Origin: Owenweeksia sp.
GTDB lineage: Bacteria > Bacteroidota > Bacteroidia > Flavobacteriales > Schleiferiaceae
Reading direction: 5' to 3'
DNA length: 32,044 bases
Assembly (NCBI GenBank): GCA_028277105.1
Contig: JANQHO010000063.1
Location: forward strand, 1 to 32,044
In this document: in pieces, positions 381-25,120 of the stretch
How the letters are laid out: each line of letters starts with the position of its first letter
How positions within the stretch are numbered: position 1 is the first letter of the stretch
Position numbers and translations under genes: made by a program
The notes under the pieces: model-generated
What the model was told of the DNA's origin: nothing
Databases searched by the model: none
Seen by the model: the letters and a program-made list of their open reading frames with translations, nothing else

Positions 381-1133
381 ATGAAAACCGCATTCATCAC
401 CGGAGCTACCTCCGGAATCGGCTACGCCACTGCTAAATTACTGGGCACCAACGGCTATCGTATCATAGCCGCAGGCCGCAGGGCCGAAAGACTGAACCAA
501 TTAAAAAGTGAGTTGCAATCCCATACAGAAGTATATTCCATGCAGTTTGATGTACGCGACAAAGCTTCGGTTTTCAATGCGGTGAATTTTTTACCAGACG
601 ACTGGAAAAACATTGACCTGCTCATTAACAATGCCGGCAATGCCCACGGCCTGGCATCTATCCAAAACGGTGACCTGGACGATTGGGAAGTCATGCTGGA
701 TATCAATGTTAAAGGCTTGCTCTACGTAAGCAAAGCGGTATTACCCCATATGATCGCCCGTAAAAGCGGACATATCATTAATATCGGTTCCATAGCCGGG
801 CGGGAAGTTTACCCCCAGGGCAATGTGTACTGTGCTTCCAAACATGCGGTGGATGCCCTGAACAGTGCTATGCGTATGGATCTGTTGGAACACAATATCA
901 AGGTTTCGCAAATAGCGCCCGGCCTGGTGGAAACCGAATTTTCCCTGGTGCGCTTTAAAGGCGATGCCGAAAAATCCCAAAAGGTTTACGAAGGTTTTGA
1001 TGCCCTGCAAGCAGAGGATATAGCTGAGCTCATTTTATTCATCGCTACCCGGCCTGCTCATGTCAACTTAGCCGATGCCTTGATTTTACCTACAGCTCAG
1101 GCGGCTAGCAAAATGGTGAGGAAGGAATCATAG
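381..1133 (+). CDS. SDR family NAD(P)-dependent oxidoreductase (YdfG-like)
   Basis: This 250-residue protein is a classical short-chain dehydrogenase/reductase of normal length. Visible motifs are the Rossmann glycine motif TGATSGIG (residues 7-14), NNAG (83-86), the structural Asn in DINVKG (N109), catalytic Ser in GSIAG (S137) and the YxxxK pair (Y150, K154). Arg33-Arg34 after the second strand favours NADP(H). The sequence resembles the YdfG group, which oxidises 3-hydroxy acids such as serine or 3-hydroxypropionate, but the substrate cannot be read from the sequence. It is cytosolic and converges on the ribbon-helix-helix gene 3 bases downstream. A diverged copy of its last 26 codons lies at 2375-2452. 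Confidence 0.93.
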   Translation: MKTAFITGATSGIGYATAKLLGTNGYRIIAAGRRAERLNQLKSELQSHTEVYSMQFDVRDKASVFNAVNFLPDDWKNIDLLINNAGNAHGLASIQNGDLDDWEVMLDINVKGLLYVSKAVLPHMIARKSGHIINIGSIAGREVYPQGNVYCASKHAVDALNSAMRMDLLEHNIKVSQIAPGLVETEFSLVRFKGDAEKSQKVYEGFDALQAEDIAELILFIATRPAHVNLADALILPTAQAASKMVRKES

Positions 1134-1136
1134 ATT

Positions 1137-1328
1137 TTATTTTCCCGAACCCGTATCACTCTCATTTGTTTTTCGCTTGTTGGATAATCTTTTGGCGTCT
1201 TTCAAGCCTTTGTTTATGATCCACTCCAACTGCCCGTTAACACTGCGGAATTCATCATCGGCCCATTTTTCTATCTGTTTGAAGGTCTCAGGGTCAATTC
1301 TAAGAACAAATGATTTTTTTTTACTCAC
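1137..1328 (-). CDS. Arc-type ribbon-helix-helix DNA-binding protein
   Basis: A 63-residue protein with the ribbon-helix-helix pattern: a short beta strand SFVLRIDPETF (about residues 6-16), helix 1 (FKQIEKWADDEF) and helix 2 (VNGQLEWIINKGLKDA), then a basic, disordered tail. Such proteins bind DNA as dimers through the strand. The start is GTG at 1328, directly followed by a run of nine A (codons AAA AAA AAA). It lies 3 bases after the SPFH stop codon, so the two form a minus-strand operon. Known family members are often autoregulatory, and the palindrome at 2191-2205 upstream of the operon is the obvious candidate operator; that link is inference. Confidence 0.85.
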   Translation of the reverse strand: MSKKKSFVLRIDPETFKQIEKWADDEFRSVNGQLEWIINKGLKDAKRLSNKRKTNESDTGSGK

Positions 1329-1331
1329 AAA

Positions 1332-2186
1332 CTAAGAGTTTAGGGTACCGGCATTTACCACTGGCATAGCCTCTTTATCACCACACAGCACCACCATTAA
1401 ATTGCTCACCATAGAAGCCTTTTTATCATCATCAAAATCAATAATATCATCTTCAGACAATTTTTTCAAGGCATCTTCTACCATACCAACCGCGCCTTCC
1501 ACTATCTTTTTACGTGCAGCAACTATAGCAACAGCCTGTTGTCTTTTCAACATTGAACTGGCAATTTCCGGAGCATAGGCCAAATAACCTATTCGAGCCT
1601 CCATTACCTTTATCCCAGCTATAGCCAGGCGTTCTGTAATTTCATTTTCCAAAGCTTCATTTACCTCATCCATTCCCGATCTCAAGGTCAATTCCGCTTT
1701 AGTGTCTTCAAAGTTATCATAAGGATAAGAGCCTGCCAGCTTCCTTACAGCTGCGTCTGTTTGTACTCTTACAAATTCTTCATAATTGTCTACATCAAAA
1801 GCGGATTTGTAGGTATCCTTTACCTGCCATACTAAGATTACATTGATCAAAATGGGATTGCCGATCTTATCGTTCACTTTAACCCGCTCACTGTCAAAAT
1901 TCCTGGCCCGCAACGAAATCTTTTGCCTGCTGTAGAAAGGATTGGTCCAAAAGAAGCCATTGTCTCGTACTGTTCCCTTATAAGCTCCAAACAAAACCAT
2001 TACGGCAGAGCTGTTGGGATTAACAATAAAAAAGCCTCTCACTATTAAAATTATCACTGGTAAAATAAGAAGGTAAGACGGGTTTTCTGTTAACACCAGG
2101 CTGCTGATCATGTAGGTAAACACAATTATTAATACTACTAACATCAGGTAACCATTGGCTGCTTTGATCTGCTTTTCATTTTTCAT
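1332..2186 (-). CDS. SPFH/band 7 domain membrane protein
   Basis: A 284-residue protein with two N-terminal hydrophobic segments (about residues 13-32 and 37-54) followed by a band 7 domain. FFIVNPNSSAVMVLFG and KGTVRDNGFFWTNPF are typical of the family, and a long charged coiled region follows (about 150-240). Family members form large membrane rings or microdomain scaffolds, here presumably on the inner membrane with the domain on one face. The C-terminus is short and ends VVNAGTLNS. The start ATG at 2186 is chosen because it gives the full first membrane segment. It is followed by the ribbon-helix-helix gene, a pairing that suggests common control. The exact function is unknown. Confidence 0.9.
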   Translation of the reverse strand: MKNEKQIKAANGYLMLVVLIIVFTYMISSLVLTENPSYLLILPVIILIVRGFFIVNPNSSAVMVLFGAYKGTVRDNGFFWTNPFYSRQKISLRARNFDSERVKVNDKIGNPILINVILVWQVKDTYKSAFDVDNYEEFVRVQTDAAVRKLAGSYPYDNFEDTKAELTLRSGMDEVNEALENEITERLAIAGIKVMEARIGYLAYAPEIASSMLKRQQAVAIVAARKKIVEGAVGMVEDALKKLSEDDIIDFDDDKKASMVSNLMVVLCGDKEAMPVVNAGTLNS

Positions 2187-2270: not shown

Positions 2271-2300
2271 AAAACAATAAGCTATACCGGCTATTACCCG
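2271..2300 (+). repeat. short dispersed repeat, copy 1 (attC-like remnant)
   Basis: The stretch AAAACAATAAGCTATACCGG plus CTATTACCCG recurs with few changes at 2546-2571 (AAAACAATAGGTTATCGG, then CTATTGCCCG). The second copy folds (GGTTAT at 2553-2558 with ATAACC at 2573-2578). Both resemble half-sites of the palindromes between the cassette-like genes and may be decayed recombination sites. Confidence 0.35.
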
Positions 2301-2374
2301 ATGAGAGCACAACGAAGTTGATTAGTTGAATTTGTACTCTAAAAACCTCTGTGTATCGTAATTATTAAACTCAG

Positions 2375-2452
2375 GCTCATCTCAATTTAGCGGACTCCTT
2401 GATTTCACCTACCACTCAGGCAGCCAGTAAAATGGTGAGGAAGGAACTATAG
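2375..2452 (+). pseudogene. decayed 3' fragment of the SDR gene
   Basis: These 78 bases align without gaps to the last 78 bases of the SDR gene (1056-1133): 65 of 78 match by eye. Translation in the matching frame gives AHLNLADSLISPTTQAASKM then VRKEL and a TAG stop, against AHVNLADALILPTAQAASKM then VRKES in the intact gene. Similarity stops abruptly upstream of 2375. It is therefore the surviving tail of a second, related SDR gene or of a duplication whose 5' part was lost. The rest of 2206-2545 holds no gene that I can see. Confidence 0.8.
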
Positions 2453-2545
2453 CGTTTAACCTAACATATTGTCACAAAATCAGGTATACCCAAAATATTG
2501 TACAAATCAGGATTTCATCTAATTTATGCCGTATATTAGGCCTAA

Positions 2546-2580
2546 AACAATAGGTTATCGGCTATTGCCCGTATAACCCG
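2546..2580 (+). repeat. short dispersed repeat, copy 2 (hairpin)
   Basis: Second copy of the 2271-2300 motif. GGTTAT (2553-2558) pairs with ATAACC (2573-2578) around CGGCTATTGCCCGT. It lies directly before the first 97-bp palindromic element and may be part of a recombination site. Confidence 0.35.
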
Positions 2581-2582
2581 TA

Positions 2583-2679
2583 GTTCAGAGCAACTTGCCT
2601 TGCGGCAAGGTATTGTTGCTCCTTCCGAAACTAGTTCGGGATCCCACTCCAATACCAAGTTGCTCTGAACGAAGCGCTA
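2583..2679 (+). repeat. 97-bp palindromic element, copy 1
   Basis: This element recurs at 3665-3761 in the same orientation with only two differences. Its first 15 bases GTTCAGAGCAACTTG (2583-2597) are perfectly complementary to CAAGTTGCTCTGAAC (2656-2670). Inside are two small hairpins, CTTGCC/GGCAAG with a 4-base loop and CCGAA/TTCGG with a 5-base loop, so the single strand can fold as a cross. It has no ORF. It could be a REP/MITE-like element, or an ORF-less cassette, since its ends are arranged like complementary cassette ends. Confidence 0.8.
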
Positions 2680-2875
2680 AACCGAAAAACCCTCTGTTTG
2701 CCCTAGGCTGTGCAACTTCGTTGCTAGCAGCTCCGAACAACTGCTAAACCTAATGATACCAAAGCTTTTCGGTACTGACCTTGCGGGTTTTACTTTTGCC
2801 GAAACAAAAAACTACGTAATTTTATTTCGCAAAATTACCCTCAGGACAGCACTACGTTTAGCGCTTCGTTAGCAA
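2668..2875 (+). other. putative attC-like palindromic site A
   Basis: AACGAAGCGCTAAAC (2668-2682) is perfectly complementary to GTTTAGCGCTTCGTT (2856-2870), enclosing about 170 bases with further internal pairing (CCGAAAA at 2683 with TTTTCGG at 2766; GTAATTTT with AAAATTAC around 2815-2838). The right end reads CGTTAGC and the next gene starts 12 bases after the GTT. This is the layout of an attC site, with half-sites at the base of a long imperfect stem. The 2680-2855 interval has no gene that I can see. Confidence 0.45.
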
Positions 2876-2882
2876 AAATATA

Positions 2883-3611
2883 ATGAGACTAATATTTCTA
2901 TTACTTATAATATTAATGAAGACCAGTATAGTACTTGGTTGCTGCAGTGCTGGTCAATACAAAATCTATCCCTTAGGTTACCAAGACGATAAATTAATCG
3001 TTGCAGAATTTCAAATGTCTAGAAATTGCATGAATGGCGATGGAGCAGGTGAAAAAAACGAATTTCATTGGAAAATAGCTGTTAACCTATCCTATATTAA
3101 TGCTGATACTACTGTAATCATTGAAAATATTGACTCTCTAACTTTCAAAGAATGTACTTGTGACTTTCGGAGCTTAAATGAAAAGAGCGAAATTGTAGCC
3201 AAATTATTCCCAGCTTACAATGAAGCTTTGAAAACGGCTAGGAGTTTAGAGGGATTTAAAGAGGTTATCCCAGAGACTTATCATTCAATAACAAAAGAAG
3301 ATACTCTTACCGACTATCAATTTATTGACTCCGACACTACCTCAGAATTTTATTATAAAGGACAGTTAAAACAATTGAATCCTGTTAACTGGGCGGCTTG
3401 TGGATTCTTAAATAACGTTCAAGAAATACGGAAATATCGATTTGAAGAAAAACAGATAATTATTGTAAATCTGAGTTGTTCTTCTATTACATCTTTACCT
3501 GAAGAAAAATTAACTAACAATAGACAAAATTTCAAATTACTCAAAACAGCGTTGATCTACACACCGACTCAATGGCATGGTTTAAGTATGGATTATATTT
3601 TAGAATATTGA
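2883..3611 (+). CDS. predicted lipoprotein, unknown function (cassette-like gene)
   Basis: A 242-residue protein with an N-terminal hydrophobic segment (MRLIFLLLIILMKTSIVLGC). VLGC at residues 17-20 is a plausible though imperfect lipobox, so it is probably a lipoprotein or at least exported. The mature part is Cys-rich near its start (CC, NCMN, CTCDF) and otherwise acidic, with no catalytic motif that I recognise. The first ATG is chosen because it gives the full signal segment. GTTAGCAAAA just upstream (2868-2877) and TTTTGCTAAC just downstream (3616-3625) are perfectly complementary, bounding the gene like an integrated cassette. Codon use is more A/T-rich than in the flanking chromosomal genes, consistent with transfer. 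Confidence 0.75.
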   Translation: MRLIFLLLIILMKTSIVLGCCSAGQYKIYPLGYQDDKLIVAEFQMSRNCMNGDGAGEKNEFHWKIAVNLSYINADTTVIIENIDSLTFKECTCDFRSLNEKSEIVAKLFPAYNEALKTARSLEGFKEVIPETYHSITKEDTLTDYQFIDSDTTSEFYYKGQLKQLNPVNWAACGFLNNVQEIRKYRFEEKQIIIVNLSCSSITSLPEEKLTNNRQNFKLLKTALIYTPTQWHGLSMDYILEY

Positions 3612-3615
3612 AAAC

Positions 3616-3675
3616 TTTTGCTAACAACGTGTAAAAATGCATTGAAACGCATTTTACACAAATCGTTCAGAGCAA
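3616..3675 (+). other. putative attC-like site B with bulged base
   Basis: TTTTGCTAAC AACG is followed by GTGTAAAAATGC (3629-3640), an 8-base loop and GCATTTTACAC (3649-3659). The arms pair completely except for one extra A on the left arm, and a GTT half-site follows in AAATCGTTCAGAGCAA. TTGCT..AAC pairs with GTT...AGCAA if CAG bulges out. Extrahelical bases in an imperfect stem with short outer half-sites are the known hallmark of attC sites recognised as folded bottom strands by integron integrases. Confidence 0.5.
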
Positions 3676-3761
3676 CTTGCCTTACGGCAAGGTATTGTTG
3701 CTCCTTCCGAAACTAGTTCGGAATCCCACTCCAATACCAAGTTGCTCTGAACGAAGCGCTA
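3665..3761 (+). repeat. 97-bp palindromic element, copy 2
   Basis: This matches 2583-2679 at 95 of 97 positions. The differences are TTAC for TTGC in the first loop and TTCGGA for TTCGGG after the second hairpin, both outside the paired arms. Its left end coincides with the right half-site of site B. The two copies lie as direct repeats 1.08 kb apart and flank the lipoprotein gene. Confidence 0.8.
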
Positions 3762-3791
3762 CAGCGGAAAATCTGTGTTTCCTCATTTTTG

Positions 3792-3980
3792 ACAACGACC
3801 AAGGATACTAAATTCGCTTTTGCTTACTGCTTTCTAAAAACCTAAGATTTTCCTCCACCAATAGGATAACATTTGACAACAATGGTTAATGCGAATTTCT
3901 AAAGGCTCCCGGTTTCGATAAATCGAACGTTACTTCGTACTTTCATCTCCCGAAACTCGCCTTAACCTTGGCCGTTGTAG
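3792..3980 (+). other. putative attC-like palindromic site C
   Basis: ACAACGACCAAGG (3792-3804) pairs with CCTTGGCCGTTGT (3966-3978) at 12 of 13 positions. Nested pairings are AAATTCGC (3810-3817) with GCGAATTT (3891-3898), or alternatively GGTTAATGCGAATTTC (3884-3899) with GAAACTCGCCTTAACC (3952-3967), 14 of 16. The two are mutually exclusive folds. The next gene starts 28 bases after the GTT at 3974. No ORF lies in 3762-4001. Confidence 0.5.
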
Positions 3981-4001
3981 CCAATTAAAAAAAAGAAAGA
4001 G

Positions 4002-4535
4002 ATGCAAGCACTCAGCCTAAAATTGACAAAGAAAATTCTGCTCGCTTTATTCGGGCTTTTCCTATTAATTCCAGAATCCTTAGTAGCGCAGATATCGGAA
4101 GCCGATAGCATAGCAATGTCAAAAGTAATCACTGATTTTAAAGAATCAATTACACAGAAAGACAGCATCCGCTTCGATAGCCTGTTTTTTAGTGAGTCTG
4201 TGAGTTTTACTGGAATTATGTCAAAAAAAACAGAATGGTCTATAAAAAAGGACTATCCAGACTTTCAAGGAATTGCCGTCTCTAACCATAAAAACTTCAT
4301 AAATGATATCTGTAAAACACCTAAAAAACAGGAAGAAAGGTTTTACAATATTATACTAGTCTCTGATGCGGTTATAGGAGCTATTTCGTTTGACTATGCG
4401 TTTTACTCGGATGGAAAAATGTTTCAATGGGGTAAGGAAAAATGGAATCTTGCAAAAGATGGAGAAAATTGGTTAATTACTGACGTTGTGTTTTCTATAC
4501 ATTTTCCAGATATTGAACCATTCCCATTTGAATAA
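4002..4535 (+). CDS. exported NTF2-like fold protein (cassette-like gene)
   Basis: A 177-residue protein with a basic N-terminus and hydrophobic stretch (about residues 10-28, ending SLVAQ) that looks like a signal peptide. The mature part follows the pattern of small NTF2/SnoaL-like proteins: an initial helix (SKVITDFKESI), FDSLFFSESVSFTG, then a series of strands including FYNIILVSDAVIGAISFDYA and the closing strand EKWNLAKDGENWLITDVVFS. No catalytic residues can be assigned. GTTGTAGCCAATT (3974-3986) upstream and AACTGGCTACAAC (4543-4555) downstream are complementary at 12 of 13 positions, so the gene sits in a unit with cassette-type ends. Translation starts 28 bases after the upstream half-site. 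Confidence 0.75.
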   Translation: MQALSLKLTKKILLALFGLFLLIPESLVAQISEADSIAMSKVITDFKESITQKDSIRFDSLFFSESVSFTGIMSKKTEWSIKKDYPDFQGIAVSNHKNFINDICKTPKKQEERFYNIILVSDAVIGAISFDYAFYSDGKMFQWGKEKWNLAKDGENWLITDVVFSIHFPDIEPFPFE

Positions 4536-4542
4536 ATTAAAA

Positions 4543-4608
4543 AACTGGCTACAACAACACCTATACGCAATGCCCTACGGGACACTACGCATAGCCAAAC
4601 CGTTAGCT
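4543..4608 (+). other. putative attC-like site D
   Basis: This is a compact palindrome between two genes. CTATACGCAATG (4561-4572) pairs with CACTACGCATAG (4583-4594) at 9 of 12 positions around a GCCCTACGGGA loop. It is flanked outside by GGCTACAACAACACC on the left and GCCAAACCGTTAGC on the right, with GGCTA/TAGCC complementary. About 65 bases long, it is the most attC-like of the sites in size and layout. Confidence 0.5.
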
Positions 4609-4616
4609 GCAATTAG

Positions 4617-4898
4617 ATGAGCATGAAATTTATTCGAGACTTATTCAAGAATGAACCTCCTAAGAGGGTAAGAATTACCAAGGGAAACATTGGTAGTTGG
4701 CCGTCATTCGCCAAACTATTGGAAGATGGGAAAATTAAGTTTGACAGAAATGGGCGTCTTAGATATAATCATGGCGCACCAGTAGGAGACTTAATATTAA
4801 CAAGAATAAATAAGGACGGAACACCTAAATACAAAGAGTCAGCTGAAGAATGGTTTGACCCTGATGGAGAAATGGCACGAAATTTCAGTTGGCCATAA
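4617..4898 (+). CDS. small basic hypothetical protein (cassette-like gene)
   Basis: A 93-residue soluble protein with no signal peptide or membrane segment. It is basic at the N-terminus (FIRDLFKNEPPKRVRITKG) and ends in an acidic/aromatic stretch (EEWFDPDGEMARNFSWP). I do not recognise a family. The start ATG at 4617 is 15 bases after the GTT half-site at 4602; a second ATG at 4623 is possible. GTTAGC before the gene is matched by GCTAAC at 4910-4915, 11 bases after the stop, as expected for cassette ends, but no complete palindrome follows, so the downstream site seems eroded. Confidence 0.6.
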   Translation: MSMKFIRDLFKNEPPKRVRITKGNIGSWPSFAKLLEDGKIKFDRNGRLRYNHGAPVGDLILTRINKDGTPKYKESAEEWFDPDGEMARNFSWP

Positions 4899-4934
4899 AA
4901 AAGAGGACTGCTAACACACAGCCCTCCCTGAATT

Positions 4935-5201
4935 TTAAGATTTTTGCCTTATTCGCTCAAAGCCTTCCCACAAGATTTTCAAATCAAAAAGAGCGGACTT
5001 TTCTTCTTCGTTAAAAGACACATCTGAATGATAGAGTGCTAAATCGTGAATCAGTTTCAAAGATTCAGATAACTGTTCCAAACCATGGAATTTCAGATAA
5101 TCCAGAAATTCTAATTGAGATTTTGATACGTGTCGGGTATCAACCGCAGTATTTGCCGAACAACCGTTCAGGCAGACACCTTGACCATTCTGTGTTGACA
5201 T
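4935..5201 (-). CDS. small hypothetical protein on the minus strand of the array
   Basis: An 88-residue protein whose C-terminal two thirds looks like a genuine helical protein: LEFLDYLKFHGLEQLSESLK, then LIHDLALYHSDVSFNEEEKS and LKILWEGFERIRQKS. The N-terminal 25 residues (Cys/Gly/Asn-rich) look less natural, and no better start is available. It is the only gene of the tract opposed to the others and has its own putative promoter upstream at 5368-5375, giving a leader of about 160 bases that contains a second ORF (5140-5340) overlapping it in another frame. No family is recognised. A toxin, antitoxin or phage-defence role is possible for reversed cassette genes but is not shown here. Confidence 0.5.
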   Translation of the reverse strand: MSTQNGQGVCLNGCSANTAVDTRHVSKSQLEFLDYLKFHGLEQLSESLKLIHDLALYHSDVSFNEEEKSALFDLKILWEGFERIRQKS

Positions 5202-5340
5202 TAGAATTGAAATTATGATGAATAAAAAGAGGGAAGGTCACCGTCAACACATTCCAAGCAATGCTTAGATTGGTCTCGGGACTTGCACCCGTATGCCTTC
5301 CCAGGATCTTCTGTTTAAACCGTTTTTGATTTTTCTGCAT
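5140..5340 (-). CDS. possible 66-residue leader ORF overlapping the 88-residue gene
   Basis: From an ATG at 5340, 28 bases downstream of the TATATTTG box, a frame of 66 residues begins very basic (MQKNQKRFKQK) and contains a hydrophobic stretch (WNVLTVTFPLFIHH). It stops at 5140 after overlapping the next ORF by 62 bases in a different frame. A +1 shift would join the two. It may be a leader peptide, the original N-terminus before a frameshift, or chance. Confidence 0.25.
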   Translation of the reverse strand: MQKNQKRFKQKILGRHTGASPETNLSIAWNVLTVTFPLFIHHNFNSNVNTEWSRCLPERLFGKYCG

Positions 5341-5363
5341 TGCGAAAATTAAAATGTGTTGAC
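5243..5363. repeat. 11-bp inverted repeat with a third half-copy
   Basis: GTCAACACATT (5243-5253) and AATGTGTTGAC (5353-5363) are perfectly complementary and enclose the leader region of the minus-strand gene. A third partial copy, TGTGTTGACATT (5191-5202), overlaps the start codon of the 88-residue ORF. Three related sites between promoter and start codon suggest a regulatory site or a leader RNA fold. A small hairpin (AAGCA/TGCTT, 5258-5268) lies inside. Confidence 0.45.
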
Positions 5364-5367
5364 AATG

Positions 5368-5375
5368 CAAATATA
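5368..5375 (-). promoter_or_regulatory. putative Bacteroidota -7 promoter box, minus strand
   Basis: Read on the minus strand, TATATTTG matches the TAnnTTTG consensus exactly and is 28 bases upstream of the ATG at 5340. I see no good TTTG -33 element at the right spacing. Confidence 0.35.
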
Positions 5376-5405
5376 CGATTAATGACGAAATGCAGGAAGA
5401 AAAGC

Positions 5406-5600
5406 CGATAACAAAAGCTATACGTAATGCGGGGTTCGGTGGTACTGGAAAGGCAAGTGTTTCATAGCCCGCCAAAGCTCTGCTTTGCCTTTCTTTCAGT
5501 AAATTTAAAGCCAAAGACACAGCTTTGGCTACCGTCCGTGCGGCTGGACAGGACAATGCCCTGCCCCTCCCGCACTACGCATAGCTAAACCGTTGCGCTT
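5406..5600 (+). other. putative attC-like palindromic site E
   Basis: GCTATACGTAATGCGGG (5417-5433) pairs with CCCGCACTACGCATAGC (5569-5585) at 15 of 17 positions. GATAACAAAA lies to its left and TAAACCGTTGCGC to its right. The enclosed 135 bases form smaller hairpins (CAAAGC/GCTTTG; GCCAAAG/CTTTGGC). Its stem shares CTATACG.AATGC and CACTACGCATAG with site D, showing the two are related sites. The next gene starts 33 bases after the GTT. It is longer than typical attC sites but within the range of long ones. Confidence 0.5.
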
Positions 5601-5624
5601 CATACTGAAAAACTAAGTGAAAAA

Positions 5625-5984
5625 ATGAAACCGAAAGAATTAATTGAAAAATGAGTAGAAACCTTTAACGAGGGAAACGCTGAAAAGATTTCGGAATTTT
5701 ATCATGATGACGCGATTAATCATCAAGTGACCAATCAACCCGTTGTTGGAAAAACTGCAATCCGAGAAATGTTTGAGCGTGAATTTAATCAAGCGGGTAT
5801 GACTTGCATAATTGAGAATACTTTTGAGGACAACGATTGGGGAATTTTGGAATGGAAAGACCCATTAGGGCTGCGTGGTTGTGGATTTTTTCAAATTGAG
5901 AACGGAAAAATTAAATTTCAAAGAGGATATTGGGATAAACTATCTTTTTTAAGACAGCATAAATTACCAATCCCAACTGAATAA
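5625..5984 (+). pseudogene. NTF2/SnoaL-like protein, interrupted by a nonsense codon
   Basis: From ATG 5625 the frame codes for a complete SnoaL-like domain of 119 residues, except that codon 10 is TGA (5652-5654) where the family pattern KELIEK-W-VETFNEGNAE expects Trp (TGG). Downstream, HDDAINHQV, GKTAIREMFEREF, WGILEWKDPLGLRGCGFF and FQRGYWDKLSFLRQH are intact. The domain belongs to the NTF2-like superfamily of small ligand-binding or enzyme proteins in the cytosol. A restart at GTG 5727 would lack helix 1, so the gene is probably inactive, or a single-base change is recent. Elsewhere TGA is used as a stop (for example at 3609), so recoding is unlikely. It lies between sites E and F; its ends GTTGCGCTT and AAAGCACAATAAC are roughly complementary. 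Confidence 0.8.
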
Positions 5985-5992
5985 AAAGTACG

Positions 5993-6196
5993 AAAGCACA
6001 ATAACGTATAACCGCAATTACGGCTGAATTATCCAATGAAAATTCTATCCGAATTGCAAATTGATGGATTTAACAGATAACATTAACCAGAAAACGTAAC
6101 TGACGGTTATACCATACCCTACGGCTGCTAATTCGCTATATTTAACCCAAAGCTGCTGCTGGAATTTTAGCAAAACACCGTCAGCCGTTATCCAGC
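5993..6196 (+). other. putative attC-like palindromic site F, possibly two nested sites
   Basis: GTATAACCG (6006-6014) pairs perfectly with CGGTTATAC (6104-6112), and CTGACGG (6100-6106) with CCGTCAG (6178-6184). The two pairings share bases, so they are alternative folds or two overlapping sites. GCTAATTC and GAATTTTAGC also pair inside. The right end CCGTTATCC lies 20 bases before the next start codon. No ORF is present in 5985-6205. Confidence 0.4.
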
Positions 6197-6205
6197 ATTT
6201 TCAAG

Positions 6206-6598
6206 ATGAACCCAGACATCAAAGCCTTTAACGAAAGTCAAACTACTGGTGAGATAGAAATATGTCATCAATTGGCCTCCATAATCAATAAACTATTGCC
6301 CGAAGCCGAAAACAAAATCTGGCACCGTCATCCTGTTTGGTTTTTAGAAGGTAACCCCATTGTTGGCTACAGCAAGCTAAGAGCTGGAATTCGTTTGATG
6401 TTTTGGAGTGGAGCCAGCTTTGATGAAGAAAATTTGAAAGCGGGTACCGGAAAATTCAAAGATGCTTCTATGCTTTATACAGCTGCAGATCAGATCAATT
6501 ATGCAGACCTGGAACGATGGATCTCAAAGTCGAGAGAAATACAATGGGATTATAAGAACATCTACAAACGAAAAGGTGAACTTGTACGGTTGAAATAG
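6206..6598 (+). CDS. DUF1801 domain protein (YdhG-like)
   Basis: A 130-residue soluble protein of the DUF1801 family: HQLASIINKLLPEAENKIWH, PVWFLEGNPIVGYSKLR, IRLMFWSGASF and the C-terminal LERWISKSREIQWDYKNIYK. The fold is related to small iron-chaperone-like proteins, but the biochemical role is unproven. It starts 20 bases after the GTTATCC half-site of site F, like the other array genes. No complementary GGATAAC or palindrome follows the stop, so it is either the last cassette with a lost site or the first chromosomal gene. A truncated member of the same family is at 28075. Confidence 0.85.
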   Translation: MNPDIKAFNESQTTGEIEICHQLASIINKLLPEAENKIWHRHPVWFLEGNPIVGYSKLRAGIRLMFWSGASFDEENLKAGTGKFKDASMLYTAADQINYADLERWISKSREIQWDYKNIYKRKGELVRLK

Positions 6599-8684: not shown

Positions 8685-9530
8685 ATGATGCCTGAACTTA
8701 AAATACCGGATGCCCCCAATTCCATACAAAAAGGAGTACCTCTAAAAATGGTACTCGATCAGGCTGCAGTTGATCAGCTGGCCGAGAACCTGCAAATCAT
8801 ACATCCGCCTTTCCCCAAAACCGACTTTATTCAGGATGCTATGGAAGGTATAGAGCCCCTCAGCATTACCCAAAGAGCTGAACACATAGCCGGGGCCATG
8901 CGAAAATATTTGCCGGCAAACTATTCGGAAGCTGTTACCATTATTTTGAAATCGCTTACTCCTCCCCTGGAAAAAACGGAAGACAACGGGCTGGCTCCCA
9001 TGTTTTATATGCCCCATTGTCAATATGTTGCCAAATACGGAGTAGACAAAGAGTACAATAATGGGCAAGACCCTTTTGAGCTTTCCATGCAGGTTCAATA
9101 TGAGTTAACCCAGCGCTTTACCTGTGAATTTTCTATCCGTCCGTTTATCATCGATCATGAAGAACGAACCATACAGGTTTTCTACCAATGGATGATGGAT
9201 GATAATCCCCACGTCAGAAGATTATGCTCGGAAGGAACCCGCCCCAGATTACCCTGGGCTGTGAAATTACCTGCCTTTATCAAGAACCCTGCTCCTTCTA
9301 TCCCCATACTCGAACAGTTGAAAAACGATCCCGATCTTTATGTAAGAAGAAGTGTGGCTAATCATGTAGGGGATATAGCCAAGGATCATCTGGAACTGGC
9401 TTTAGACCTGTGTGAAAAATGGCTCAAAGGAGCCTCTAAGGAATTGAAATGGGTTATACGCCACGCGCTAAGACATCCGGCCAAAAAAGAAATGGCCAAA
9501 GCCCTTGAAATTCGAGAAGCGGCAAAATGA
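8685..9530 (+). CDS. DNA alkylation repair protein, AlkC family
   Basis: A 281-residue HEAT-repeat protein with the AlkC signature stretches: RFTCEFSIRPFIIDHEER, QVFYQWMMDDNPHVRRLCSE, GTRPRLPWAVKLPAF and DLYVRRSVANHVGDIAKDH. AlkC enzymes are monofunctional DNA glycosylases that remove 3-methyladenine and 3-methylcytosine lesions from alkylated DNA. The length fits the form lacking the C-terminal Ig-like domain. Two consecutive ATG codons (8685, 8688) can start it. The next gene overlaps its stop by 4 bases (ATGA), so the two are translationally coupled. A palindrome just upstream may control it. Another alkylation repair gene of the related AlkD type is at 29975. Confidence 0.9.
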   Translation: MMPELKIPDAPNSIQKGVPLKMVLDQAAVDQLAENLQIIHPPFPKTDFIQDAMEGIEPLSITQRAEHIAGAMRKYLPANYSEAVTIILKSLTPPLEKTEDNGLAPMFYMPHCQYVAKYGVDKEYNNGQDPFELSMQVQYELTQRFTCEFSIRPFIIDHEERTIQVFYQWMMDDNPHVRRLCSEGTRPRLPWAVKLPAFIKNPAPSIPILEQLKNDPDLYVRRSVANHVGDIAKDHLELALDLCEKWLKGASKELKWVIRHALRHPAKKEMAKALEIREAAK

Positions 9531-10054
9531 GGCAAATTCCATTAACACTGTTGCTTACGTTGAATTATTTTGTCACTTCAGCACAAGTAGATTCGTTGAG
9601 GTTCCCAACAATTCTTGATGAGGAATATGCCGTTTATCAATATGACTCGATCCTTCTTATGAACATCCTGACTTATCAGTACTCTGACTTTTGGGATATG
9701 GACAATGACGGGCTGAAGGACAGCGTAGAATTTATAAGTAATGGTGGAGCACATGCGTATTACCATTTGAGGATTTGGCTGTCATCAAAAAGTAAATGGA
9801 CGGAATTTCCGACATTTTATATTGACTTTCCTCATCCGCACGAGATAGAAAGCTTAGACGAGTTAAATGGATCATATCCTCAATTTGTTGTACGTGATTT
9901 TGACAATGATGAAGTTGACGAATTATACTTAAACCTTGACAACCCATTTGCTTCTATTCCGCAAGATTTGATTGAACAAGGAGTGACTTCAAAACAGATT
10001 TTAATTGACTACAACAATAGGGAACTAATTGTATTGAATTTTAAAAAACAATAA
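9527..10054 (+). CDS. exported hypothetical protein with Asp-rich motifs
   Basis: A 175-residue protein with a clear signal peptide (about residues 1-20, ending FVTSAQ). The mature part contains DMDNDGLKD and DFDNDEVDE, which resemble calcium-binding loops of the EF-hand or FG-GAP/VCBS type seen in secreted proteins. No sorting domain is present at the C-terminus, so a periplasmic location is likely. It overlaps the AlkC-type gene by ATGA, an odd pairing of a cytosolic repair enzyme with a secreted protein. A palindromic, attC-like tract begins 5 bases after its stop. Function unknown. Confidence 0.7.
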   Translation: MRQIPLTLLLTLNYFVTSAQVDSLRFPTILDEEYAVYQYDSILLMNILTYQYSDFWDMDNDGLKDSVEFISNGGAHAYYHLRIWLSSKSKWTEFPTFYIDFPHPHEIESLDELNGSYPQFVVRDFDNDEVDELYLNLDNPFASIPQDLIEQGVTSKQILIDYNNRELIVLNFKKQ

Positions 10055-10058
10055 ACAC

Positions 10059-10178
10059 AGCGTACAACAATGGCTGTAAAATATAGGGCTGGCGTGGTTT
10101 ACAGAAAACTTAATCACGTTTCAACGATTGGATAGGCTCGTAGGTTTCTAATCCTTACAACCTCATAACCAAATCGTT
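10059..10178 (+). other. attC-like palindromic remnant
   Basis: GCGTACAACAATGGCTGTAAA resembles the left half-sites of the 3-6 kb array (ACAACAA followed by a stem). CTGTAAA (10074-10080) pairs with TTTACAG (10098-10104), and AACGATTGG (10123-10131) pairs with CCAAATCGTT (10169-10178) with one bulged base. The rest of the 10055-10487 gap holds no gene, terminator or promoter I can identify. Confidence 0.3.
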
Positions 10179-10487
10179 ACCTTTCACAAAACTTCAAATA
10201 AAATTGGCCAGCGGATTTATTATTATTCAAAGGCGGGAGGTGTTTTGCCAGAAGGTGGACGGACTACGATGAAATTACCTGTTTCCTTTCATCTTTTCAA
10301 AAAGTACATTCACACATCAATAAATGGCATCTATACAATTTAAGATAGTGAAATAGCTATCCTTATTAGGTTTACCAGTAAAAGCAATCATTTTAAAAAA
10401 ATCAATTACGGAAAAGTCCATATTCTCCAGGAATTGCATTCGGAAATTATTGCTAATTGTTAATCTTTAACCTACCACACCCAAACC

Positions 10488-21283: not shown

Positions 21284-24200
21284 TTATTCCTTCACCAGCC
21301 GGAATACCGCCTCCTGCTCTCCGCTGGAAATATGCAAAAGGTAAATGCCGCTGGCCCCTTCTATGGTCAGTTCTACCGTTTCAGTTTGCTCAAAAGACCA
21401 GCTTTTCAGCTTCTGACCAGAAACATCACTGAGGCTTATTCTTACCTCCTCCTGCCGTTCTCCTACTTCTATTGTTACTGCACCTTTAGTGGGATTGGGA
21501 TAAAGCACTATGTTACCACTGGTAAGAGCTTCGCCCAGGCTAACGGAATTGATAAGATAACAGGCCGAAGTATCCGTACAGCCATTTTCGGTAACGATCA
21601 CAGCATAGCTGCCGTTAGTAGTAGGGATAAAACTACGGCTAACCGCTCCGTTGACGGGGGTATTATTACTGCAATCGATCCACTGGTAGATCGCTGTTTG
21701 GGCATCGGCTATCAGGTTTATTCCGTTTTGGGTAACTCCTGTATCAGCCGGATCAACCGTTAAATTGATGGTGATGATGCTGTCACAACCTTTTGCATTA
21801 AGGATAGTATCCGTATAAGTACCATTATTGATCCAAGTGTAATTACCGCTGGGAGAAATGTAGCTCTTACACACTCTGCGGTTGATCGTAGACAAAGTAG
21901 TCGAATTGACAGTAAGATTAAACGTCATAATACTATCACAGCCAACAACATTAGGAATAGTATCTGTATATATTCCTGTTAATTGCCATACATACTTACC
22001 ACTGGGGGATACCAGGCTGTCACAAACCACTGGATTGAAAGTAGCCGAGCTATTATCAATGGTAAGGTTTATCGTTATAACACTGTCGCAACCTGCTGTA
22101 TTGGGAACCGTATCCATATAACTACCACTGGTAAACCAGGTATATCTGCCACTGGGCGACACCAGGCTATCACATACTATCCGGTTAATACTAGATGAGT
22201 TATTATTGACTGTAAGATTAACCGTAATAATACTATCGCAACCTGCCGCATTGAGGAGTGTATCCAAATAAATTCCCGTTGCTGTCCATACATAGTTACC
22301 ACTGGGGGATATCAGGCTGTCGCAAACCACAGGGTTAATAGTAACCGAACTGGTAGATTTGACCGTAAGATTGATCATAATAATACTATCGCAACCTGCT
22401 GTATTGGGAACCGTGTCTATATAACTACCACTGGTAAACCAGGTATATCTGCCACTGGGCGACACCAGGCTATCGCATACTATCGTATTGACTACAGCCG
22501 AGTTATTAGAGTTCACCGTAAGATTAACTGTAATAATACTATCGCAGCCCGCTGTATTGAGGAGTGTATCCAAATAAGTTCCTGTCGCTGTCCATACATA
22601 GTTACCGCTGGGGGATATCAGACTGTCACAAACCACAGGGTTAATAGTAACCGAGCTATTGTTGACGGTAAGGTTAACGGTAATAACGCTATCACAGCCT
22701 GATGCATTGGGTAGGGTATCTGTATAAATGCCATTAGTAGCCCAGGTATAATTGCCACTGGGAGAAATCAGGCTGTCGCATACAGAAGCATTAATAGTAT
22801 CAAAGGTATTTTTAATCTTGAGATCAATGGAAATAATGCTATCGCAACCTCTGGCATTAAGGATAGTATCAGTGTATATACCGCTAGTAGTCCAGGTATA
22901 AAGGCCGCTGGGAGAGGTGTAGTGGCTACAGGCTGAGTCTGTTAGGGTGCTGGCAGTGGTATAACATTGGATAAACTTTACCAGAAAACCGTCTCTGCTA
23001 TCCCCTCCGTAGGAAGCCTGGTGGCTTCCGGTGCTGGCTATCCCAGATACCGAATTTGTTTCACCTGTGATATAAATATCATAAGAGTTATCCAGCAGGC
23101 AATCATTTGGATTGTCGATTTCTGCACCTCCGTAATAGCTGCCCCATTGCCGTATTCCGTTACTATCAAATTTTACCAGCATCACATCCCCTCTCCCTGC
23201 CCTGCTGATCTGATAAGCTCCAGGTGTGGCAATAGAAGTATCTGACCATGATTCTCCTATCAGGTAAATATTCAAAGAATCGTCTACAACACAAGCATCC
23301 CCCCCTTCCAAGTATGAACCTCCATAATAGGTAGCCCATTGTCGTACTCCATTTCGGTTAAACTTCACCAAATAAGCATCGTTTTGTCCATTTAGTGAAA
23401 CTTGATGGCTGCCTGAACTAGCTATGGCATTAGCCGAGAAGGTCATTCCTGTACAAAATATATTCGATGAAGAATCCACTGCACAGTCACCTAAAAAATC
23501 AGAATTAGTACCACCGTAATAAGTTGCCCACTGCCGCACCCCATCATCGCTAAACTTTGCTATAAATGCGTCTATATTACCACCACCATAATTGGGTTGA
23601 TGGCTACCCGGGCTAGCGATAGAGGAAATAGATGCTGCATAACCTGCTAAATAAACCTCTGAAGAATCACCTAAAACACAAACTATTCCAACATCATCCT
23701 TACTACCCCCATAATACGTACCCCATTGCCTTACTCCGCCACTATCAAACTTTACCAAAAAAGCATCAGAATCCAATCCACTTCCACTAAGTGAACTTTG
23801 ATGGCTCCCTGCGGTAGCAATGCCTGAAGTTGAAAAAGTAGAACCCGTAATATAGATATTTGAAGAACCATCCAGCACACAGGACCGACTGCTTTCACTG
23901 CGTGTTCCTCCATAATAAGTGGCCCATTGTCTACCCCCTTGTAAATTAAATTTAACTAAAAAAGCATCTTGTGTACCTCCAAAGTTACTCTGATGACTGC
24001 CCACAGTAGCAATCCCTGAATTTGAAGACGTTCCTCCTGTTACATAAATGCCAGAGGAATTATCATTATCAATAGTACAACCCAACATAGCATCATCTCC
24101 TGTACCCCCGTAATAGGTAGCCCATTGCCGTATTCCATCATTGTTAAATTTGACCAGAAAACCATCTGAAAATCCACCGCCATAGGTACTTTGATACGCA

Positions 24201-25120
24201 CCAGTAGTAGCAATTGAGGTCATAGATGGGGTAGAACCCACCATATATATATTTAAAGAATCATCCAGTACACTGGTGTAAGCCCTATCAATTTCAGCCC
24301 CACCGTAATAAGTTCCCCACTGCCTTAAGAGCACAATAGGATCAATGATCAAAGGCAAAGCAGGATCATAGGCAGAAACCTTAAAGCCTATGGTTTGATC
24401 TTTAAGGTCCCATTCAGCCGCTACTCCCTTTTCTCCCTGATAGGCTACCGGGGCCTGTTCCCTGATCTCTCCCAAAGGGGTCTGGATCACCAATTCTCCC
24501 GATTCACTAATGGATAAAGCTTCTGCTCCCTTTATTTCCCAGCGGATCTGCCGGTAATCGATGCCGGGCGCCACTACAAAATCGTATTCCAGCCTTCCGT
24601 GGTTGTCGTACCACTGCAGGTCGATGCCAGGATAAATATCTTTATAGGTAACCCTTTCAAAGGATCGCACTCCACTTACTCCTTCCGGGCATACCGCCAG
24701 GTAGTAATTTTCATAACCGAGGCGAACCTGTCCTTTTACTACTTTGTAGTCAGGGTTGATCCCCAGCCAGTTGATATCGGTGCGATAAACGGTAGTGGTA
24801 TCGGGTATTTGTTCCCTTTCCCGGCCGGGTTGTTTTTCCCGTTCCCCTGCTTCGCGCCAGCTCTCTACCCGGTAAAGCTGGTAGGAGATGCCGTCTTTGC
24901 GCAGGTGATATACCATTCCTCCAGCCTCACCCGAAAACAACACATCGGGCCGGGGCTGGTGGTACTGATCGGAAACCTGCCCTTTGTTTTCAGTGAAAAA
25001 TATCTGTTGCTCCTGCTTGTGATTAAATTCTTTCAGCAGGCCAGACTTTTGGTCAACTTGTCCGGGTAATACGGTAAAGATTAAAAGATATAAGTTTGTA
25101 AACAGTAGTCTTGTTTTCAT
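21284..25120 (-). CDS. very large T9SS cargo protein with SBBP and Cys repeats
   Basis: A 1278-residue precursor. The order is: signal peptide (about 1-20), an N-terminal domain of the kind found before SBBP propellers (FFTENKGQVSDQYHQPRPDV; YKDIYPGIDLQWYDN; about 40-260), then seven SBBP-type repeats each starting QW(A/G)xYYGG and ending with a FLVKF-like strand (about 265-690). These are followed by eight repeats of about 50 residues with two conserved cysteines (CDSL.SPSGxYxW and GCDSIITxNLTV), a linker (SFIPTTNGSYAVIVTENGC) and a type A T9SS sorting domain (IVLYPNPTKGAVTIEV to the end). It is secreted through T9SS to the surface and may act as an adhesin or structural protein; no enzymatic residues are seen. 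Confidence 0.9.
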   Translation of the reverse strand: MKTRLLFTNLYLLIFTVLPGQVDQKSGLLKEFNHKQEQQIFFTENKGQVSDQYHQPRPDVLFSGEAGGMVYHLRKDGISYQLYRVESWREAGEREKQPGREREQIPDTTTVYRTDINWLGINPDYKVVKGQVRLGYENYYLAVCPEGVSGVRSFERVTYKDIYPGIDLQWYDNHGRLEYDFVVAPGIDYRQIRWEIKGAEALSISESGELVIQTPLGEIREQAPVAYQGEKGVAAEWDLKDQTIGFKVSAYDPALPLIIDPIVLLRQWGTYYGGAEIDRAYTSVLDDSLNIYMVGSTPSMTSIATTGAYQSTYGGGFSDGFLVKFNNDGIRQWATYYGGTGDDAMLGCTIDNDNSSGIYVTGGTSSNSGIATVGSHQSNFGGTQDAFLVKFNLQGGRQWATYYGGTRSESSRSCVLDGSSNIYITGSTFSTSGIATAGSHQSSLSGSGLDSDAFLVKFDSGGVRQWGTYYGGSKDDVGIVCVLGDSSEVYLAGYAASISSIASPGSHQPNYGGGNIDAFIAKFSDDGVRQWATYYGGTNSDFLGDCAVDSSSNIFCTGMTFSANAIASSGSHQVSLNGQNDAYLVKFNRNGVRQWATYYGGSYLEGGDACVVDDSLNIYLIGESWSDTSIATPGAYQISRAGRGDVMLVKFDSNGIRQWGSYYGGAEIDNPNDCLLDNSYDIYITGETNSVSGIASTGSHQASYGGDSRDGFLVKFIQCYTTASTLTDSACSHYTSPSGLYTWTTSGIYTDTILNARGCDSIISIDLKIKNTFDTINASVCDSLISPSGNYTWATNGIYTDTLPNASGCDSVITVNLTVNNSSVTINPVVCDSLISPSGNYVWTATGTYLDTLLNTAGCDSIITVNLTVNSNNSAVVNTIVCDSLVSPSGRYTWFTSGSYIDTVPNTAGCDSIIMINLTVKSTSSVTINPVVCDSLISPSGNYVWTATGIYLDTLLNAAGCDSIITVNLTVNNNSSSINRIVCDSLVSPSGRYTWFTSGSYMDTVPNTAGCDSVITINLTIDNSSATFNPVVCDSLVSPSGKYVWQLTGIYTDTIPNVVGCDSIMTFNLTVNSTTLSTINRRVCKSYISPSGNYTWINNGTYTDTILNAKGCDSIITINLTVDPADTGVTQNGINLIADAQTAIYQWIDCSNNTPVNGAVSRSFIPTTNGSYAVIVTENGCTDTSACYLINSVSLGEALTSGNIVLYPNPTKGAVTIEVGERQEEVRISLSDVSGQKLKSWSFEQTETVELTIEGASGIYLLHISSGEQEAVFRLVKE
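21757..22940 (-). repeat. eight tandem ~150-bp coding repeats
   Basis: The Cys-repeat part of the T9SS cargo gene consists of eight units of about 148 bp on the DNA level. Units 2-3 and 4-5 (counted from the first full CDSL unit in protein order) are far more alike than neighbours: GTAAACC-containing segments at 22131 and 22434 and GTCCATA-containing segments at 22284 and 22590 are 303-306 bases apart. A two-unit block was thus duplicated recently. Confidence 0.85.

Follow-up and report, generated by a model that had tools for sequence, protein, structure and literature searches.

The 32,044-nt stretch of DNA analysed here (the window) is the entire contig C170 (JANQHO010000063.1) of a 3.9-Mb, 174-contig genome of Owenweeksia sp., 98.5% complete, and between positions 2446 and 6187 it carries a decayed cassette array of the integron type, set in a Bacteroidota chromosome. 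This confirms the layout that a first-pass annotation had proposed from the sequence alone: GTT half-sites, long palindromes and complementary unit ends are all present, several of the palindromes are matched by covariance models, and the best array sites score above shuffled sequence. Units start at GTT motifs at 2868, 3974, 4602, 5592 and 6187, and a plus-strand gene follows shortly after each, as had been claimed for five genes or gene remnants, although the last of the five is probably a resident gene and that of the 5592 unit is broken. Compared over 13 nt, the two ends of a unit are complementary at 11 positions in the 2868 unit and 12 in the 3974 unit, which bears out the claim that at least two units have mutually complementary ends; the figures are 13/13 in mini-cassettes without an open reading frame (ORF), 9/13 in the 4602 unit (measured to site E) and just 7/13 in the 5592 unit. 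Only two genes in the block 2271-6598 match Pfam, a broken SnoaL-like gene and a DUF1801 gene at 6206. A search of the window against Rfam gave nothing at gathering scores, and a search of plasmid DNA with the block returned only similarity to the SnoaL-type gene.

At its left end the array retains part of a recombinase gene. A stop-containing 5' remnant of an integrase gene, of a type that lacks the I2 region of canonical integron integrases (IntI), lies on the minus strand at 2446-2482 and reads DFVTIC*VKRYSS where the intact integrase on contig C164 of the same genome reads DFGKILEVKRYSA. At its break point this short remnant abuts a degenerate duplicate (2375-2458, 82%) of the 3' end of a short-chain dehydrogenase gene, a copy of window 1056-1139. 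The alignment continues through an attI-like site on the plus strand (2483-2585, crossover G^TT at 2583), the context of which is that of attI in a related genome (G133) and in a Flagellimonas plasmid up to GTAGTT, and diverges after it. Aligned to integrase start plus attI, window 2446-2585 scores 94 against G133 (null maximum 65), 91 against the Flagellimonas plasmid (null maximum 56) and 76 against C164 (null maximum 49). Because this segment matches an integrase start with its attI, and because the remnant is broken, the window is read as an integron-type locus that has lost its integrase. The first-pass annotation was right that no intact integrase is present, since the window holds no integrase ORF and only the remnant at 2446-2482, but it missed that remnant and the attI. 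With at least two attC sites within 4 kb of each other and no intact integrase nearby, the locus is a cluster of attC sites lacking integron-integrases (CALIN), though not purely so, because attI and a truncated integrase start are retained.

The sites were scored with a hairpin scanner, which seeks a bottom-strand hairpin between AAC and CGTT and penalises bulges, and with two covariance models, R1 of trimmed sites and R2 of full-length sites, the latter built because R1 missed sites with long loops. The units and sites that follow attI lie on the plus strand. The first is an ORF-less mini-cassette of 141 bp (2583-2723), 98% identical to C164:82451-82591 from GTT to CGTT, with flanks that diverge exactly at GTT on both sides; a third copy, the second in the window, is partial (3665-3771) and starts exactly at the GTT at 3665. 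Next comes a further ORF-less unit or degenerate site (2724-2867), a long imperfect palindrome that ends in CGTT at 2868, has its best partner arm near 2661 and scores 32.6 in the scanner. The cassette at 2868-3625 holds ORF 2883-3611 (242 aa, no Pfam family) and is followed by attC C1 (3619-3670; 21.9 and 26.5 bits in the covariance models, E 0.0014 for the second) and, beyond the partial mini-cassette, by attC C2 (3870-3978; scanner 36.6), the surroundings of which (3849-3976) are 91% identical to C164:96343-96470. The cassette at 3974-4555, with ORF 4002-4535 (177 aa), has a homologue in genome G074 that is 83% identical from the exact crossover onward, and the attC that follows in the window is not kept there; that site, attC D (4549-4607), has a short loop and scores 50.7 bits (E 3.9e-11). 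The cassette at 4602-5412 contains ORF 4617-4898 and, on the minus strand, a reversed ORF of 88 aa (4935-5201), upstream of which lies a long leader with paired segments (5202-5400, minus strand) that matches no Rfam family at gathering score.

Two further sites close the array. attC E (5406-5597) scores 42.9 bits (E 3.4e-7) and has an 85% relative at position 17280 of contig C34 in G074, and the cassette after it (5592-6010) holds the SnoaL-like pseudogene, with its ATG at 5625 and an in-frame TGA at 5652. attC F (5996-6123; 42.9 bits, E 3.3e-7) has conserved left and hairpin arms and a degenerate right end. The GTT half-site at 6187 precedes the DUF1801 gene (6206-6598; the unit spans 6187-6598), which is probably resident right flank and not a cassette, because it has no distal site and its homologue in a relative adjoins a homologue of a HEAT gene. 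A lone weak attC-like site (10062-10181, plus strand; 27.6 bits, E 7.8e-4) stands about 4 kb from the array, directly after ORF 9527-10054.

The best array sites score 32 to 42 in the scanner, whereas reverse strands reach no more than 31.5 and shuffled sequence no more than 31.1. Across 20 arrays, a unit's own start and own end are complementary at 5 or more of 6 positions in 38 of 60 consecutive site pairs, where 3.1 are expected and at most 9 were seen in 2000 shuffles. An alignment of 32 sites has 92.7% paired cells (68.8% when shuffled) and a covariation score of 0.591 (0.166 when shuffled). Two positions form a bottom-strand G.T wobble, an A.C mismatch on the top strand, in 31 and in all 32 of these sites, and pair 25-52 is G.U in 31. 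Among 83 sites with a central mismatch, A stands on the left and C on the right in 55 and the reverse holds in 2, and 74 are more stable when folded as the bottom strand (mean -3.0 kcal/mol), which is the bottom-strand bias expected of attC. In the L box, where extrahelical bases would lie, alignment A1 shows the invariant G.T wobble and no consistent bulge, in a sample biased by a scanner that penalised bulges. The palindromes might be ordinary intergenic hairpins, such as terminators, repetitive extragenic palindromic (REP) elements or miniature inverted-repeat transposable elements (MITEs), arranged in this way by coincidence, and the mini-cassette, which ends in inverted repeats, could resemble a MITE. 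The excess of complementary cassette ends, the covariation with its invariant wobble, and units shared with exact G^TT boundaries leave that explanation scarcely credible. The arrays of Neolewinella (loci L070 and L084) have GC-rich attC sites that seem to carry an extra left-arm base, unlike the flavobacterial ones.

When the block 2271-6598 was matched against its own genome, most matches fell on one stretch of C164, right beside a tyrosine recombinase gene; the search for such a gene beyond the window, which the first-pass annotation had advised, thus yielded a recombinase with a second array, and one without the I2 region. A gene that we take by eye to be secA is followed by the minus-strand recombinase and then by an array of plus-strand units in divergent layout, that is, by the adjacency of tyrosine recombinase gene, attI and cassettes that characterises an integron. 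The units encode a TPR protein, a beta-lactamase family protein, a HigBA-like pair, alpha/beta hydrolases, a WYL regulator, a GNAT acetyltransferase and others, and are separated by the same kind of site as in the window, R''-L''-L'-R' hairpins with crossover at G^TT; the first unit starts with GTTGGCATT and ends with AATGCCAAC. In this genome attC sites occur on C164, C170, C172, C102, C148, C34, C45 and C35. A repeat that is not attC (GCTAAAAAGCAATAAAAATGTAAACTCCGT..ACTACTTTTAGC) also recurs between C164 units (locus L019, 7680-7745, 12478-12540 and 18060-18125). One unit of the C164 array (L019, 13643-14983) encodes a secreted protein whose CDS..SPSG-type repeats and sorting tail resemble those of a 1278-aa protein at window 21284-25120.

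Comparison of relatives suggests that these cassettes move as units. In silico, cassettes whose two ends complement each other reappear at other loci with their boundaries exact, a comparison in the spirit of the search for precise gain or loss of units that the first-pass annotation had proposed; the mini-cassette and the 4002 gene are the cases within the window. Conservation of all these genes in order would have spoken against the reading, and no relative compared has the whole block in order. The integrase region is conserved through attI and diverges at the attI GTT between two Salinimicrobium loci (L060 and L061) and between G133 and Flagellimonas. A comparison of flanks for an empty site found the SPFH/ribbon-helix-helix gene pair of window 1137-2186 retained in relatives beside other neighbours, with the AraC gene (6681) nearby in none of them. 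Very probably, then, the window is a decayed copy of an integron-type cassette platform, the complete version of which, with its I2-less integrase, is on C164.

The C164 integrase adopts the Xer/IntI fold and shares a C-terminal SPLD motif with IntI, and the catalytic residues are invariant. Its GKGxKDR and HxLRH motifs are separated by 59 residues, mostly 59-60 in its relatives and 65-67 in the genome's Xer-like proteins, whereas the canonical IntI compared all have 101, owing to an insertion of ~42 residues that holds the I2 helix; the IntI-specific additional domain (I2, patch III) is therefore absent. The protein matches TIGR02249 at 203 bits over its whole length, below the cut-off of 265, and its best NCBIfam match is NF040815 (recomb_XerA_Arch, site-specific tyrosine recombinase/integron integrase; 234 bits, cut-off 220). 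It falls outside the XerD (201.5 bits, cut-off 329.6) and XerC (191 bits, cut-off 335) equivalogs, and separate XerC/XerD-like genes lie on C5 and C16. A predicted model of the Salinimicrobium homologue (mean predicted local distance difference test score, pLDDT, 85.8) has no helix at the I2 position and finds its best structural matches in archaeal Xer, XerA and IntI4; no row of the VIA-align list contradicts the Xer/IntI fold. In a quick tree, the root of which was not inferred, every canonical IntI falls within a single clade with full support, and the C164 integrase lies outside it, in its own clade with G076, G099, G053, G133, G027 and a plasmid copy.

For about 30 relatives of the integrase, kept apart here, the gene immediately downstream encodes a zinc-ribbon transposase of the IS91 type, and some of these are in Cyclobacteriaceae with attC arrays. 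This is what might be expected if the locus were an IS91-type element that used an accessory tyrosine recombinase to insert beside hairpin sites, but the clearest arrays, those of the own clade, Salinimicrobium, Gillisia, Neolewinella and Carboxylicivirga, have no IS91-type gene in their loci, and such an origin is given almost no weight. In four metagenome-assembled genomes of Planctomycetota, Calditrichota and Chloroflexota (loci L079, L117, L123 and L131) an I2-less recombinase has a canonical IntI as its neighbour; it faces away from that IntI, near the position of the first cassette, in three of these genomes, and in L079, L117 and L123 an IS91-type transposase follows it.

The system extends well beyond this genome. 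With counts taken among a set number of candidates scored per genome and R2 matches accepted at E 1e-3 or better, attC was found in 92/119 sampled Bacteroidia genomes, many at 1e-13 or better, in 15/61 genomes of another class of the phylum, and in none of 14 non-Bacteroidota control genomes. The I2-less integrase is present in 64 of the 119 Bacteroidia genomes, and attC accompanies it in 62 of those 64, against 30 of the 55 without it (Fisher p 1.8e-8). Arrays adjoin relatives of the recombinase in many Bacteroidota, with almost no sites in control directions, and do so in two layouts: divergent in the own clade and in G110/G129, and codirectional, with the integrase upstream, in Salinimicrobium, Gillisia, Neolewinella, Carboxylicivirga and others. 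The mobilizable plasmid NZ_CP092416 of Flagellimonas marinaquae (L160, 10818-13724) has an integrase of the I2-less type and an array of two sites; the array holds a dihydrofolate-reductase-family cassette with mutually complementary ends, and erm(F) lies between it and the integrase.

A canonical CALIN, with attC of the usual type and cassettes supplied by an ordinary, I2-bearing IntI, would likewise show the GTT core, the R and L boxes, the bias towards the bottom strand and the one-gene cassettes. This reading is very unlikely: canonical IntI is found neither in the genome, where the best match stays below the TIGR02249 cut-off, nor in any of the 119 sampled Bacteroidia genomes, and the attC model built here leaves the IntI1 locus unmatched and gives one weak match (20.8 bits) across four canonical loci.

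The likeness to canonical integrons (IntI1; IntI4 of Vibrio cholerae) and to CALINs nonetheless covers the adjacency of tyrosine recombinase gene and attI, cassettes that mostly hold one gene and share an orientation, the G^TT crossover, complementary cassette ends, attC sites that form imperfect hairpins with the bottom strand the more stable, and the SPLD motif. The differences are an integrase without the ~42-residue insertion and outside the IntI clade, an L box with a G.T wobble that is invariant on the bottom strand and with no consistent bulged bases (in aligned sites from a scanner that penalised bulges), and the host class, Bacteroidia, many lineages of which have the codirectional layout. 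A search for the I2 domain did not find it, so the locus is not filed as a canonical integron, integron-like as its working may be. Xer proteins act in chromosome-dimer resolution at dif; NF040815/Xer recombinases share the fold, and archaeal Xer and XerA are the closest solved structures, but the integrases described here adjoin attI and cassette arrays. IS91-type elements with an upstream tyrosine recombinase carry a related I2-less enzyme, paired with a zinc-ribbon transposase, unlike the own clade.

IntI has been defined by its additional domain (PMC9668308; PMC2426708). The I2 helix was described as necessary for cassette capture, as the source of single-strand activity and as found in no other protein, and IntI1 loses its activity when the helix is deleted (Escudero et al. 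2020, PMC7790495). A close known system is the integron-like subgroup of simple tyrosine recombinases; the accessible part of that account calls the insertion essential for integron function and ties no array or attC to members without it (Smyshlyaev et al. 2021, PMC8138268). Surveys recorded almost no integrons in Bacteroidetes, and that of 2022 a single complete one in Bacteroidetes proper, in Salinibacter (PMC9024848). In the open literature searched, subscription journals and preprints aside, no paper describing arrays with an I2-less integrase was found. The suggestion that the cassette system was an unrecognised one fares well in that standard surveys would miss this Bacteroidota system.

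In the mechanism favoured here, the C164 integrase or its relatives would recognise attC in its folded bottom-strand form and in this way excise and insert cassettes at G^TT, with insertion at the attI that adjoins the integrase's own gene. Because the I2 helix, which in canonical IntI reads the extrahelical bases, is absent, the choice of strand may come from the greater stability of the bottom strand together with the invariant G.T wobble. The window copy, having lost its integrase, would now be a store of cassettes on which the C164 platform could act in trans.

Several points weigh against this account. The pairing statistics are partly circular, because sites were picked partly by hairpin score; the asymmetry of wobble and mismatch is not, because the scanner treated both mismatch directions alike, and neither is the position of sites beside integrases. 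Family membership alone is no proof of an integron role, because the family includes the recombinases upstream of IS91-type transposases. The genome is a draft in 174 contigs, and no recombination was observed, so that all mobility is deduced from comparison. Finally, the 30 attC-bearing genomes without a strong integrase match mean that another enzyme may act, or that the integrase was lost or missed in drafts. If another recombinase worked the sites, either host XerC/XerD (host Xer-like proteins are related) or a canonical IntI from other bacteria, the I2-less gene would be a bystander. That is improbable, since arrays begin at the I2-less gene, where attI is conserved and the cassettes diverge exactly at its GTT, integrase and attC co-occur as described, and canonical IntI, missing from the sampled Bacteroidia, was yet detected by the same search in 105/395 genomes across the phylum, one of them labelled as the same class.

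On balance, Bacteroidia seem to possess their own branch of integrons, a reading favoured with some reserve, in which an I2-less integrase would recombine folded single-stranded attC by way of the invariant G.T wobble and strand stability in place of extrahelical bases, either as an ancestral form that predates I2 or by an independent route, hidden from finders that require the I2 domain. Since most sampled Bacteroidia have integron-type sites and roughly half encode the I2-less integrase, it becomes directly testable how single-strand recombination arose, and a large mobile cassette reservoir, to which an array adjacent to erm(F) on a plasmid belongs, may have escaped current tools.

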